Position numbers and translations under genes: made by a program. A stretch of DNA of 64,000 nt from Torymus aiolomorphi. Taxonomy: Eukaryota > Arthropoda > Insecta > Hymenoptera > Torymidae. The stretch covers positions 27,281,862-27,345,861 of the forward strand of contig CM070874.1 of the NCBI GenBank assembly GCA_036365515.1. Direction: 5' to 3'. The notes under the pieces are model-generated. The model searched no databases. It saw only the letters and a program-made list of their open reading frames with translations, and was not told the origin of the DNA. Positions 21,854-31,360 of the stretch are shown here, piece by piece (the first letter of the stretch is position 1; each line of letters begins with the position of its first letter).

Positions 21854-22078
21854 CGCGGTTTTGACGAGTTTTTCGAGATATTATATACCGGTTATGAAGA
21901 GTTTCTCCGGTTTTGAAGAGCCTCTTCAAACTGGAAATGGTATATATGGCCGGTTTTGGAGAGTTTTCGGCCATTTTCTAGAGTTTATAACCCCAGGGTC
22001 CATTATTTCTTTAGTCAAGGACCTACAGCAACTCTGAAGAAAAAACTATACCTCTCCAAAACCGGTTCACCCACATAC
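21854..22078 (+). repeat. core-motif cassette A
   Basis: Four copies of a cassette-specific motif (CCGGTTTTGRAGAG type; 21854, 21888, 21907, 21950) precede the shared core ATTATTTCTTTAGTCA (22002-22017). A single antisense copy, CCTCTCCAAAACCGG (22051-22065), follows; it is an exact complement of the 21950 copy. A long TA microsatellite follows. Confidence 0.85.
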
Positions 22079-22178
22079 TTATATATATATATATATATAT
22101 ATATATATATATATATATATATATATATATATATATATATATATATATATATATATATATATATATATATATATATAT
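22079..22178. repeat. TA microsatellite
   Basis: About 100 bp of pure TA separates cassettes A and B. Confidence 0.98.
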
Positions 22179-22405
22179 GTCAAATGCAGCTTCTGAGGAT
22201 CTATGTCAGCACGGATTCGATACTTTGAGGATTTTTCGGACTTTTGAGGACATCCTCAAAATTCCTTCGGTATGAAATGGTACTTTTGAGGATTTATATT
22301 AATACCGTCAACGCAGAGAGGGAGTTATTTCTTTAGTCATGCATATACGAACTCTGGAGAAAAAAACTATAGATACTCAAAAGTATCGGTTTCCGAAATG
22401 TGTGT
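22179..22405 (+). repeat. core-motif cassette B
   Basis: Motif copies of the type GATACTTTTGAGGAT at about 22218, 22238 and 22279, core TTATTTCTTTAGTCA (22325-22339), AACTCTG, then the antisense GATACTCAAAAGTATCGG (22372-22389). A short TA tract ends the unit. Confidence 0.8.
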
Positions 22406-22419
22406 ATATATATATAACT

Positions 22420-22658
22420 ATGGGGATTGGTATATTTGAAGAGATATCAACGTATAGATCGGTACTTTTGAAGAGATGTCGGCATCTTGAAGAGACTCCT
22501 CAAATTTCTCAAAGCAAGAATCGCGACTTTTGAGGAGAAATCTATACCCCCTTTTCCCAGAGTCGGTAACCTGAGGGTCATTATTTCTTTAGTCACATTG
22601 TCCGAACTCTGAGCGAAAGGTTCACATCTCCTCAAAAGTACCAATTTACAAACATATC
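22420..22658 (+). repeat. core-motif cassette C
   Basis: Motif copies include GGTACTTTTGAAGAGATG (22461-22478), with weaker ones at about 22427, 22485 and 22521. The core is at 22580-22595, followed by AACTCTG and the antisense CATCTCCTCAAAAGTACCA (22624-22642). A TA tract follows, in which the 7.3-kb transposon begins. Confidence 0.8.
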
Positions 22659-22670
22659 ATATATATATAT

Positions 22671-23705
22671 GGGTCGTTCCTGTACTTTTTTTAAAAAGTG
22701 TGCGCGGGGGGGTCGTCGATTTTTTTTATGAAAGTACATATAAAAAAATAGCTTGTGCAAAATTTCAGCCCCTTATCTCATTCCTAATTCCTGCTGGAAT
22801 TTTTGTAAACCCTGATTTTGACCTGTTTTTAGCCAGTTTTCAAAAAATTCTAAAAGGCTGAAATTTTAACAAAATGAGGTCGGTGAGGTCTCATTTTTTT
22901 TGTCTTTCTTCAAATTTTAAGAAAAAAAATATACTGATATGAACTGATGATTTAGGTTTTATTGGCGATCTGTGATATGGCCATTGCATTTCATCATTTT
23001 TAGATCATCTTCAAACCTCTATATCTCGTAACTGGTTCCACATTTTTGAGCTCACTAGGTCTCATTTTTTTTTGTCTCAACGAAACCTTTCATTTCTTTT
23101 TTTGAGGACCTAAATTGATTGAATAAACTTCAAGATACAGCCTTTTAAGTTGACGTTCTTATCAAAAATCGCGAAAATCAACCGTGTTCATGGTCACAGT
23201 GTCAACCGAATTTGAATTAAAAATCATTAACAAAAGTATTTTTCATTAGAATATGATGTTATCTAACTATACTCTTTTTCTATCATAGGAAAAAGTCAAA
23301 AAATAATTTTTTGTCGAGCATTATAATATCTAATTTTTCGATACCTAAAATAATCAAAAATGGCTCTCTACTGACATGAATTCTACCATCTTATAATTAT
23401 TTTTGACACGTATACGTAACATAGATACAAAGGTGGTTCCTAGAACTTGAAAATTCGTAGTCGCTGATTTTTCTAGGACCACTAGAGCCAAAGTTATAGC
23501 AGTTTTTATAAAAAAATATTTTTCAAGTGGTAAAATTAGAGCTTGTGAAATATAGGAAAAGTTTTATTTACAAGATCAACCCTAAGTTTGGCATAATTGT
23601 CCTAAAAAAAGTGCTGAGGCTGCATATTTTGAAGATCTTAGGCCATGTCTACACTATGCGAGAAGCACGTGCGATCAGCCCAAGCGATGCGAGCAAGCAA
23701 TGCGT
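22671..23705. repeat. left terminal inverted repeat of the 7.3-kb transposon
   Basis: It matches 28910-29955 in reverse complement over about 1 kb, with scattered substitutions and a 17-bp-scale insertion near the right tip (an extra GTCGACGATTTT-like copy). Confidence 0.9.
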
Positions 23706-24275
23706 GTTGGACAAAATATTTAAAATACTTAAAATGATAAATAATATCATTTCACTACGATATTATTGACGATATTATTTATCGCTAAATATAGATCTAC
23801 TAACTGATCTACTACGATTGTTCGGGATTGAAGTATCCAAAGTGCCCGCTAGATGGCAAGCGTCCGATGCGCTCCCACTATGAAAAACATCACCCAGCGG
23901 GCTTAAATAGAGTCCTGCGGCGCCTAGTCGCTACGTGCTTTATGCACATTCCTTTTACCTTACCACTTTCCGTTTTACCTATACAATGCCTTATTGCCTG
24001 TTCACTCGTACGCATAAGCGTTCATACCTTTTTCTGCAATCAACTTTCACTTTCGAGTAGAGTTGGTTGCATAGACTCTTGAAGTCTAATTTTCCCGTTT
24101 ATTTCTTCTCACTGACAAACCCTAATAATATAAACTCACGTTTGCGTTCAACCGTATACAACGATATTATTTATCATTTTAAGTATTTCAAGTACTTTGT
24201 GCAAAACGTATGGCTTGTCGCATGCGCGCACCGGTTGCGCTTCTCGCATACCTAGTATAGACATGGTCTTTAATG
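23637..24275. repeat. nested inverted repeat next to the left TIR
   Basis: GGCCATGTCTACACTATGCG (from about 23641) recurs in reverse near 24272, and AATACTTAAAATGATAAATA (from about 23723) recurs in reverse at about 24162-24198. The block could be a nested MITE or an extension of the TIR. No gene inside. Confidence 0.6.
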
Positions 24276-24312
24276 CAAGTTTTCTATAGTTTTACGTGCG
24301 TTATACGTATAA

Positions 24313-24354
24313 GCTCAGGTTAAATGAAACATACATAGATAGTTTCATTTAACC
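24313..24354. repeat. perfect 15-bp-stem hairpin
   Basis: CAGGTTAAATGAAAC and its complement GTTTCATTTAACCTG flank an 11-base loop, upstream of the first recognisable transposase exon. Confidence 0.85.
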
Positions 24355-24607
24355 TGTGTTGACGTAAGTTAATAGATGACAGACATCCATTTTTCTGTGC
24401 GAGACAGCCGTGAACCCGTCATCCGTTACACGACACACGGCACGGAATGTCCTTAAACAATGAGTACAAGTTACAATAAAAAATGAAATGAATATTTCTA
24501 AGTATAATTGTGAAGGTAGTTGAGCAGAACTATTACCAAGTATATCAGTATTGGTTCGGTTGGGTTTTATAAATTGTACAATTGTGTTTTGTAAGTGTTA
24601 TCTTCTC

Positions 24608-29955: not shown

Positions 29956-29995
29956 ATATATATATATATATATATGTATATATATATATATATTG

Positions 29996-30157
29996 ATTAT
30001 GCAGCCCGGGCTTCATAATATTTCTAAATATAGGGGTTTATGCGGCCCGACCCAGAATCTATAATCCCAGGGTCCATTATTTCTTTAGTCACTTGCCATA
30101 GGGAACTCTGGGCTGTAAGTACTAATATACAGTCTTGGGCTACATAAACCCCGATAA
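29996..30157 (+). repeat. core-motif cassette D
   Basis: Motif GGGGTTTATGCGGCCC (30033-30048) and a weaker TTATGCAGCCCGGG upstream, core at 30076-30091 preceded by ATAATCCCAGGGTCC, then AACTCTG and the antisense GGGCTACATAAACCCC (30137-30152). It is nearly identical to cassette G in reverse. Confidence 0.85.
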
Positions 30158-30300
30158 GTGTGCGTGTGTGTGTGTGTGTGTGTGTGTGTGTGTGTGTGTG
30201 TGTGTGTGTGTGTGTGTGTGTGTGTGTGTGTGTGTGTGTGTGTGTGTGTGTGTGTGTGTGTGTGTGTGTGTGTGTGTGTGTGTATATATATATATATATA
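30158..30300. repeat. TG microsatellite with TA end
   Basis: About 125 bp of TG repeats followed by a short TA run between cassettes D and E. Confidence 0.98.
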
Positions 30301-30545
30301 AGGCGTTATTTCTGGGATTATACAGTGTTCTATAATTTATCCATTCAGAGTTGCTATATACAAACTGTTATAAACAACTAAATGTTTTATTGCTATAAAC
30401 AACAAGTGACTAAAGAAATAATGGACCCTAGGGTTATAGACTCTAGCACGGGCTCGGAAATAACGAAAATTTACCTTTTTCTTTTCCGGGACGTCCCGGA
30501 AATAACCGTTATATAAATTTTTTCGTCCCAGAAATAACGCTTATA
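30301..30545 (-). repeat. core-motif cassette E
   Basis: On the minus strand, motif copies complementary to TCCCAGAAATAACGC (30526-30540), TCCCGGAAATAAC (30494) and CTCGGAAATAACG (30453) precede the core (30422-30407). The antisense copy GGCGTTATTTCTGGGA at 30302-30317 is an exact 15-base complement. Confidence 0.85.
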
Positions 30546-30580
30546 TAAATATATATATATATATATATATATATATATAT
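30546..30580. repeat. TA microsatellite
   Basis: Separates cassettes E and F. Confidence 0.95.
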
Positions 30581-30783
30581 AAGCTTGTATAACGTTAGTT
30601 CCGAGGACCCCATGTTACTGTATACCTGTACGTGACTAAAGAAATAATGTCTCTTATGGCGGCCGATGTCCTCAAAACTGACGTTAAACATATGTAGATT
30701 CAGGGACTGTCCCCAAAACTAACAAATGTCCCCGAAACCAACGTTAAACATCTGGAATGTCCTGGAAACTAACATAAAACATA
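30581..30783 (-). repeat. core-motif cassette F
   Basis: Four motif copies (GTCCTCAAAACTGACGTT at 30669, GTCCCCAAAACTAAC at 30709, GTCCCCGAAACCAACGTT at 30728, GTCCTGGAAACTAAC at 30759) flank the core at 30633-30648. One opposite-strand copy AACGTTAGTTCCGAGGAC is at 30591-30608. Confidence 0.85.
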
Positions 30784-30887
30784 AATATATATATATATAT
30801 ATATATATATATATATATATATATATATATATATATATATATATATATATATATATATATATATATGTATATATATATATATATATA
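30784..30887. repeat. TA microsatellite
   Basis: About 100 bp of TA between cassettes F and G. Confidence 0.98.
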
Positions 30888-31117
30888 CACTTATCCGGGT
30901 TTATGTAGCCCAAGACTGTATATTAGTACCTACAGCTCGGAGTTCCCTATGGCAAGTGACTAAAGAAATAATGGACCCTGGGGTTATAGACTCTAGGTCG
31001 GGCCGCATAAACCCCTATATTTAGAAATATTATGAAGCCCGGGCTGAATAATCGAAATCGGGCTCAATAAACCCCTATATATAAAAAACGGGCTTTATAA
31101 GCCCCTTTCGAGAAATG
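30888..31117 (-). repeat. core-motif cassette G
   Basis: Opposite-strand copy CCGGGTTTATGTAGCCC (30895-30911), core at 30957-30972, and motif copies GGGCCGCATAAACCCC (31000-31015) and related CGGGCTCAATAAACCCC (about 31060). Near-identical to cassette D in reverse orientation. Confidence 0.85.
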
Positions 31118-31126
31118 TATATATAT

Positions 31127-31360
31127 ACCTGTAAAATAAAACCGGTGTTTTGAATGCGCGACGCCATTTTAGCAGGAAACTATAGCAAAATCCCATATGT
31201 AAGACGAAGACAGACGATCGCGTGACTAAAGAAATAAAATCCCTATATATATTGACTTTTTGAATGCCGCATTCAAAACGTCAGTTGATTGCATTTTTAA
31301 CATGGGAACATATAGAATCTATAGAAAGTTGCGCATTCAAAACACCAGATTTTCATACTT
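31127..31360 (-). repeat. core-motif cassette H
   Basis: ACCGGTGTTTTGAATGCGC (31141-31159) pairs exactly over 16 bases with GCGCATTCAAAACACC (31331-31346); a further copy GCCGCATTCAAAACG lies at 31266. The core TGACTAAAGAAATAAA is at 31223-31238. A TA tract (31361-31402) follows. Confidence 0.85.

Follow-up and report, generated by a model that had tools for sequence, protein, structure and literature searches.

Short, probably mobile units with a fixed core and jointly changing motifs in TA microsatellites of Torymus aiolomorphi

Short elements that have inverted repeats and lie between tracts of (TA)n or of other microsatellites have been described as SaTar, Micron and MuTAnT (PMC5907723, PMC4486113). 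SaTar elements are reported from guayule, rice, sorghum and citrus, the paper describing plants (PMC5907723), and 90% of the MuTAnT elements of Medicago measure 200–300 bp (PMC4486113). The DINE-1, mini-me and HINE elements, non-autonomous Helentrons that contain no open reading frame (ORF), are likewise associated with microsatellites, and the letters of their subterminal inverted repeats vary from one species or family to another. In DINE-1 these repeats are 13 bp long, the core is conserved, and the 5′ repeat is accompanied by a partial inverted one (PMC2374699, PMC4067079). Here we analyse a 64,000-nt stretch of the genome of Torymus aiolomorphi (the window; assembly GCA_036365515.1, contig CM070874.1, forward-strand positions 27,281,862 to 27,345,861), in which nine units, A to I, combine a fixed 17-nt core with a motif present in several copies around it. 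In our view the units are probably short, non-autonomous DNA elements that are likely to be mobile and that reside in TA microsatellites; their layout is fixed, whereas the motif, likely the site of the protein that moves them, appears to have been replaced in concert in each subfamily.

Like SaTar elements, the units form modular arrays of different elements set apart by microsatellite (PMC5907723), and they extend to an insect genome a TA-tract habitat that the literature consulted describes in plants. SaTar and MuTAnT families are, however, defined by their own terminal repeats, with a link to Mutator-like elements and duplications of 8–11 bp (PMC5907723, PMC4486113), whereas the unit subfamilies share core and layout, not the terminal motif. 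With DINE-1 and HINEs the units have in common family-specific subterminal inverted repeats and a conserved core, and the statement of an earlier note on this DNA that no described family has this design was too strong, since DINE-1 combines the core, the species-differing repeats and the partial 5′ inverted repeat. DINE-1 and HINEs nevertheless have one repeat per end, whereas in a unit as many as four sense copies, together with two antisense ones, stand at fixed steps; the 3′ stem-loop and the insertion at TT of those elements are not seen in the units, and the HINEs of the mite have no core (PMC4067079). Moreover, unlike DINE-1 and HINEs, the units coexist in one genome with at least nine motif types. 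No description of up to six copies at fixed steps, of concerted re-lettering or of many coexisting types was found in open-licence literature, nor did four spellings of the core give any match there; as far as this literature goes, a layout of repeats at fixed steps that exists side by side in many types is undescribed. A parallel in working, not in membership, is offered by begomovirus origins and deltasatellites, which join a fixed short hairpin-loop sequence to iterons and whose non-coding satellites need a helper (PMC4756297). Those are circular virus DNAs served by a Rep, whereas no nick site, circle or Rep has been shown for the units.

Units in the window and across the genome

With up to three mismatches allowed, the core pattern occurs at 11 places in the window, and none of 100 shuffles reached at least 11; two of these places (28618 and 60370) do not lie within units. 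The units are about 170–325 nt each and are bounded by TA or TG/TA microsatellite. The full plan reads M1, M2, M3 with an abutting antisense copy M3′, M4, core and, as the 3′ arm, an antisense copy M′. When the 3′-arm motif was mapped onto each window unit, the 5′ side proved to hold between two and four good sense copies and, beyond what the earlier note had described, a further antisense copy next to a sense copy.

Unit A (21844..22079, plus strand, CCGGTTTTGRAGAG type), whose motif limits were set by eye, has M1 at 21853-21869, M2 at 21886-21902, M3 at 21905-21921, M3′ at 21920-21936, M4 at 21948-21964, the core at 22002-22018 and M′ at 22050-22066. The same parts lie, in the same order, at 22185-22201, 22216-22232, 22236-22252, 22251-22267, 22277-22293, 22324-22340 and 22372-22389 in unit B (22177..22399, plus strand, ACTTTTGAGGA type) and at 22427-22444, 22460-22477, 22480-22496, 22495-22511, 22522-22538, 22580-22596 and 22626-22643 in unit C (22412..22660, plus strand, ACTTTTGAAGAG type). 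Unit F (30584..30780, minus strand, GTTAGTTTCCAGGAC type), a member of what we call subfamily 2, is also complete, with M1 at 30759-30776, M2 at 30728-30745, M3 at 30709-30726, M3′ at 30693-30710, M4 at 30668-30685, the core at 30632-30648 and M′ at 30591-30609. Unit E (30302..30540, minus strand, GTTATTTCTGGGAC type) has an outer sense copy at 30526-30540, M3 at 30494-30506, M3′ at 30483-30491, M4 at 30457-30465, the core at 30406-30422 and M′ at 30302-30319, which matches the outer copy exactly over 15 nt. In unit H (31135..31359, minus strand, TTTTGAATGCGC type), an outer copy (31328-31346), an inner copy (31268-31279) and an antisense copy (31258-31267) precede the core (31222-31238) and M′ (31142-31162). 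Unit I (52548..52872, plus strand, CGCTAYSTTTCAGGACA type) stands apart, with full sense copies at 52557-52576 and 52618-52636, two shorter ones between and after them, the core at 52776-52792 and M′ at 52843-52864.

The remaining two units are copies of one subfamily. Unit D (29990..30157, plus strand, TTTATnnAGCCC type) has no M1 and M2 and consists of M3 (29997-30007), M3′ (30008-30018), M4 (30033-30048), the core (30076-30092) and M′ (30134-30152). Unit G (30887..31119, minus strand) has M1 at 31089-31105, M2 at 31059-31075, M3 at 31040-31054, M3′ at 31025-31041, M4 at 30999-31015, the core at 30956-30972 and M′ at 30896-30912. The two lie in inverted orientation, with 197-nt arms that are 89% complementary. 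All nine cores occupy the sites at which the earlier note had placed them; because D and G belong together, however, the units represent eight subfamilies and not nine separate kinds.

A search of the window's own genome, 1.08 Gb on 21 contigs, found the core, with at most one mismatch, at 14,797 places, as compared with 32 for the reversed pattern; these places are cores, not all of them shown as whole units. Our sample, taken from a single contig (C1), consisted of 30 loci from this search and 40 further stretches and held 124 core places at up to three mismatches, three of which were judged by reading to be chance cores. The core is exact in 96 of the 124, mostly search seeds, and the sample cannot gauge core conservation. 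Together with the nine window units, these places fell into 28 clusters at one setting and 37 at another (129 of the 133 used). At least nine motif types were distinguished by reading: TTTATnnAGCCC, GTTATTTCTGGGAC, CTTATGCAGAC, TTTTGAGGAG with near variants, GTTAGTTTCCAGGAC, CGCTATGTTTCAGGACA, TTTTGAATGCGC, TTTCTGGTAACC and TACTTCGGGGAC. Since motif identity between families averages 48% in the seven-family spacing comparison given below, it is possible that a single ancestral motif lies behind all types.

The left-end 31-mer of subfamily 2 was found, with at most one mismatch, at 1257 places genome-wide (control, 0) and its exact right end at 927. The 14 sampled copies are on average 96.6% alike, which suggests a recent spread, and the existence of such closely alike, dispersed copies of one defined sequence makes it likely that the units are mobile. 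Outside this genome, the core matched four viral contigs and one bacterial contig, while a second viral scan gave no match. The viral matches were rejected as units, no unit being present around any of the four when read, and the bacterial one is taken as chance.

Apparent concerted change within a mostly constant layout

The earlier note had proposed that the arms of each unit match each other while the motif differs from unit to unit. When the arms of the window units were compared with 1000 dinucleotide shuffles of the 3′ arm, the own score was reached by 2 shuffles in A, 5 in B, 2 in D, 1 each in E and F, 20 in G, the weakest of the nine, and 0 in C, H and I. Cross-unit pairs score below own pairs, except for the related B/C and D/G, and the exact arms reported for A, E and H are borne out over 14, 15 and 16 nt, respectively. 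In the larger set, 81 of the 133 units were flanked by microsatellite at each end and had arms of a usable length. Paired with each other, the arms of these units score 13.5 on average versus 7.2 for shuffled ones, and 70 of the 81 exceed all 60 shuffles. These units share kinship within families, and a test at the family level is fairer. For 28 of the 37 cluster representatives (before scoring, three chance cores had been removed by eye, as had six others that were truncated, hybrid or odd), the own pairings sum to 379.5, as compared with 288.5 for the largest of 20,000 permutations. The own pairing is the best in its row for 15 of the 28 and the best in its column for 14; most other own pairings are outscored by families of the same motif type, and clusters 10, 13 and 25, which have no clear arm, are outscored widely. 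The own score of family 16 is high (37.5) because its 5′ end repeats its 3′ end in inverted orientation. The co-variation of the arms is thus confirmed, also at the loci sampled across the contig, where pairing is well above chance.

The sense copies, in turn, stand at nearly constant distances. In seven families (clusters 0, 1, 2, 6, 8, 9 and 26, picked for four clear sense copies, with comparisons 0–1 and 8–26 omitted) the steps between them are 31.9, 19.1 and 41.6 nt, with standard deviations of 0.8, 0.3 and 1.0, and the spacers are just 34–38% identical across the families. Consecutive steps of 31–33 and 19–20 nt occur in 15 of 23 clusters (0, 1, 2, 3, 4, 6, 8, 9, 10, 13, 14, 15, 19, 26 and 34). 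In cluster 3, as read from member g005 (the representative is cut short), the motif block as a whole is shifted away from the core by about 87 nt, with steps still of 32, 20 and 42. In the core-anchored clusters, the start of the antisense copy beside M3 falls, where found, at −60 to −85 relative to the core and that of the 3′ arm at +39 to +64, the exceptions being unit E, with its arm at +103, and the representative of cluster 10, in which no 3′ arm was found. A direct comparison is provided by families 0 and 1, whose consensuses have only two differences from the CTAGAGTC block through the core to ACTAATATACAG; their motif copies and 3′ arms differ, and differ together.

Binding sites, hairpin or copying process

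If the units are mobile elements with a replaceable protein site, a multi-site protein complex may assemble on the motif repeats, whose steps, as the analyst remarked, are near three, two and four helical turns, and the fixed core may be a second, shared point of recognition or cleavage. A new subfamily would arise once all motif copies had shifted so as to suit another protein, or an altered one, with its own specificity. The arms would be self-complementary through the antisense copy of the site at the 3′ end, as in ordinary inverted repeats, without any selection for a hairpin. Each insertion would sit in a TA tract, or make one, into which the next element inserts, and modular arrays would form because every insertion occupies or creates insertable TA tract.

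It is tempting to go one step further, although we do so tentatively and would not count on it, and to propose that layout and address evolve separately, core and site geometry being kept, all sites being re-lettered together and at least nine differently addressed lines coexisting. If this were true, the units would parallel, within a chromosome, those virus satellites that retain the nick site but exchange their iterons so as to follow a different helper. On the interpretation set out above, the units are in any case a natural experiment in DNA-binding specificity: through thousands of copies in many subfamilies, core and spacing stay and the docking letters change at all sites. Should the binding protein be found, each subfamily would supply a matched protein–site pair, and such pairs would make the co-evolution of transposases and their sites, and the way in which non-autonomous elements follow or escape transposases, directly testable.

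Several points weigh against the interpretation of the units as mobile elements with concertedly replaced sites. No autonomous partner, transposase or binding protein has been identified for them, and no empty site or target duplication has been established. Unlike those of most DDE transposons, the terminal bases that adjoin the tract vary among the 25 family ends compared, these ends being defined by trimming the tract. The microsatellite habitat speaks for the interpretation, a microsatellite lying within 420 nt on both sides of 85 of 119 sampled cores (on one side of 30 and on neither side of four), but the two-sided figure has no random-place baseline. As for the layout, eight of the 23 clusters do not show both common steps. 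Cluster B has steps of 32, 19 and 42 once one weak extra match is ignored, and clusters with a lost or missed copy have remaining steps of 31/60 (cluster 12), 53/41 (16), 19/41 (33), 32/42 (E) and 19/41 (I, with six matches), but unit H, with a single step of 64 nt, and cluster 18, with 42, 18, 20 and 34, do not fit. The third step of cluster 19 is 53, and the CTTATGCAGAC families carry further sense copies beyond the core, on its 3′ side; clusters 4 and 34 (L058 and L075 are examples) have two of these, again 32–33 nt apart. The register motifs of the spacing analysis were chosen by the analyst, and the spacing could have been inherited rather than selected, though the spacers have diverged. 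It is still a stronger result than the similarity of the six motif copies within units A, B, C, F and G (five of the nine), which averages 9.83 versus 5.51 for same-position copies elsewhere and 6.39 after permutation, and is reached in none of 5000 label permutations, in a test that is partly circular, the copies having been placed by eye for likeness. Finally, all 18 folds of the nine units have negative z values (−1.5 to −6.7), 12 of them beating all 150 shuffles, and the core is unpaired at 0.57 versus 0.45 in A+T-matched segments.

The folding results speak for an alternative in which the units are structured RNA or single-stranded DNA foldbacks, the 3′ arm pairing with a 5′ copy around a core loop and selection keeping the pairing. 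The match of the arms far beyond shuffles and permutations points in the same direction, as does the fact that, in 23 of 28 cases, the core pairs less than the remainder of its unit. Perfect palindromes of at least 9 nt were found on the 5′ side in nine of 28 representatives (in 0 of 40 shuffles each), but the other 19 have no perfect palindrome beyond their shuffles. Among ten families scored, three of them of one motif type, the best sense partner of the 3′ arm is M4, the copy closest to the core, in five, which would suit a foldback, M1 in three and M2 in one, with a three-way tie in one. Because the copy that best matches the 3′ arm varies in this way, a single conserved hairpin is not the best reading; furthermore, direct copies that are unable to pair all at once change together. 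In family 0, the largest sampled cluster, the two central letters are AA (M1), CG (M2), GC (both M3 and M4) and, in the 3′ arm, GT (consensus of 25 copies, mean identity 0.886), and the arm therefore matches no sense copy at these letters. Rfam gave no family at gathering score in the window, which also counts against a foldback, and permissive RNA-family scans of two cluster stretches returned mostly low-complexity TA matches, all of them sub-threshold. The earlier note had suggested either a foldback under selection or a copying process. The co-variation and the folding beyond shuffles stand, but a selected foldback is not the best account of them and appears unlikely to us: a selected hairpin explains only the antisense copies, whereas repeated sites for one protein would explain direct and antisense copies, differences at tolerant positions and constant spacing alike. 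Judging from the sequences, repeated protein-binding sites fit the constant spacing better than does a foldback.

Alternatively, neutral copying, by template switching or short gene conversion at TA-rich hairpins, may keep the motif copies alike without selection. Arm-to-arm copying does happen, to judge from one unit (L021, C1:1384957) in which about 45 nt at the 5′ end repeat the unit's 3′ end in inverted form, as though copying had rebuilt it. Three of 85 units have an inverted copy of the 5′ end just upstream and five an inverted copy of the 3′ end just downstream; several of these eight are, however, members of pairs, and head-to-head or tail-to-tail neighbours may be independent insertions. 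Two of the 85 passed the own-ends test, but they are the two cores of one locus (L057, C1:5468262 and 5468364), in which two units are fused tail to tail with no tract between them; because they are one locus lying tail to tail, they are not counted for copying. Conversion would also have to replace tracts of 12–16 nt at six places while sparing the spacers, and the slots of family 0 keep the different central letters given above. We therefore hold it to be very unlikely that copying of this kind accounts for the likeness of the motif copies, and retain the binding-site interpretation in what follows.

TA tracts and neighbouring mobile elements

All seven perfect TA tracts of at least 20 nt in the window touch a unit, two of them being parts of one tract. 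Tracts of (TA)n lie between A and B (22080..22178), between E and F (30542..30581), between F and G (30781..30887), at the outer end of H (31360..31407), and to the left (52478..52549) and right (52873..52938) of I; between D and E, (GT)n is followed by (AT)n (30158..30301). By reading, units A–C and D–H are arranged end to end in microsatellite, none interrupting another; elsewhere, hybrids of two units occur (L042, 3036574/3036693). The two arrays are split by a DNA transposon (about 22671-29955, by reading) with inverted ends of about 1 kb (GGGTCGTTCC...), which lies within the TA tract between C and D and not inside a unit. For its ORF at 26813-27871 there are 116 related proteins, of which those with a named source come from animals, whereas Pfam gave no match; one transposon protein of the genome has named relatives in an ant, Cotesia wasps, a fly, a beetle, crinoids and a sponge. 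GGG-ended sequences resembling the ends of this transposon border TA tracts at two sampled loci (L023 and L062).

A coding relative of the units was sought through the ends of subfamily 2. Among 100 of its 1257 left ends, an exact right end lies within 260 nt in 62, farther off in five, and not within 20 kb in 33. The right ends were sought by exact pattern among the matches listed, and most of the 33 are therefore expected to have altered right ends; just two of them, in L072 and L074, were looked at. At L072 (2170-2410), two left ends of subfamily 2 stand head to head across a short TA tract, and the second loses its 3′ part after the core, beside a TGATATCC repeat. One of the five distant pairs, 4711 nt apart (L079, C1:49540390-49545250), is a subfamily 2 unit with an insert of 4551 nt between core and 3′ arm, just after the core. 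This insert matches DDE_Tnp_4 (1.4e-36) and, at 20.8 bits, below the cut-off of 22, YqaJ (5.1e-4), and has THAP-like exons by reading alone. It has AT on both sides and its own inverted ends (TCGCTCCG..., 110 nt compared), in which the unit motif is absent by reading. ISL2EU elements are described as having a THAP and DDE ORF, a YqaJ ORF and an AT target duplication (PMC4482050), features that the insert shows and the units do not, although the first bases of the insert are TC and those of ISL2EU usually GG. Given its own inverted ends and the flanking AT, as in the ISL2EU duplication, the insert is best explained as a separate ISL2EU-like element that entered the unit later, not as a coding relative of the units.

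As regards Mutator, transposases of this type are numerous in the genome, with MULE domains found among 338 candidates, of which 150 were scored. A link to the units was not found, with just two Mutator-like elements read (both ends of one at 5216-7222 of the window and one end of another in L056); these begin with AAGGGG and are without unit motifs. The element in the window has inverted ends TTAAGGGGGTATCCTCGTATAGATC and adjoins ORFs matching DNA polymerase B.

To the right of unit I, the window contains a Helitron-like element (52939-61240) with a CTAG hairpin end and, on one strand, ORFs for an OTU protease (55659-56078), a Rep (58783-59448) and a PIF1 helicase (60117-61037). The units may be non-autonomous partners of Helentron-type rolling-circle elements, comparable to DINE-1 or HINEs, and the core, subterminal repeats and partial 5′ inverted repeat of DINE-1 noted at the outset would suit this possibility, as would the position of the OTU, Rep and PIF1 ORFs within DNA bordered by a TA tract. 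At L042, helicase ORFs come after a unit that lacks M′, and the far end of that DNA, AAATAACGCTTACGAC, shares 12 nt with the M′ of the unit's own motif type; read on the minus strand, this end (about 2200) is ACATAAATAACGCTTACGAC, the 12 nt being common to the 3′-arm motif of GTTATTTCTGGGAC families. The match is a lead, but as a single case it may be due to chance, and other such ends (about 42030 and 52460 in the window and 1880 in L042) show no motif. No palindrome was seen 3′ of M′ by reading of representatives, in which the stretches between M′ and tract are short, and the units lie in TA tracts, not between TT, with exact insertion points hidden by the tracts. Moreover, unit I, which adjoins the Helitron-like element, is complete by itself. 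In our estimation a Helentron partnership is therefore quite unlikely. The idea that the unit arrays mark Helitron 3′ ends was dropped: further CTAG hairpin ends occur at about 31409 and 42040, such ends face units in either orientation, and the one at 42040 is without a unit. Two further repeats lie within the Helitron-like region (53169-54653 and 56419-57612): a long minisatellite of the TGTCTCTACG type, and 3.9 tandem copies of a 308-nt sequence.

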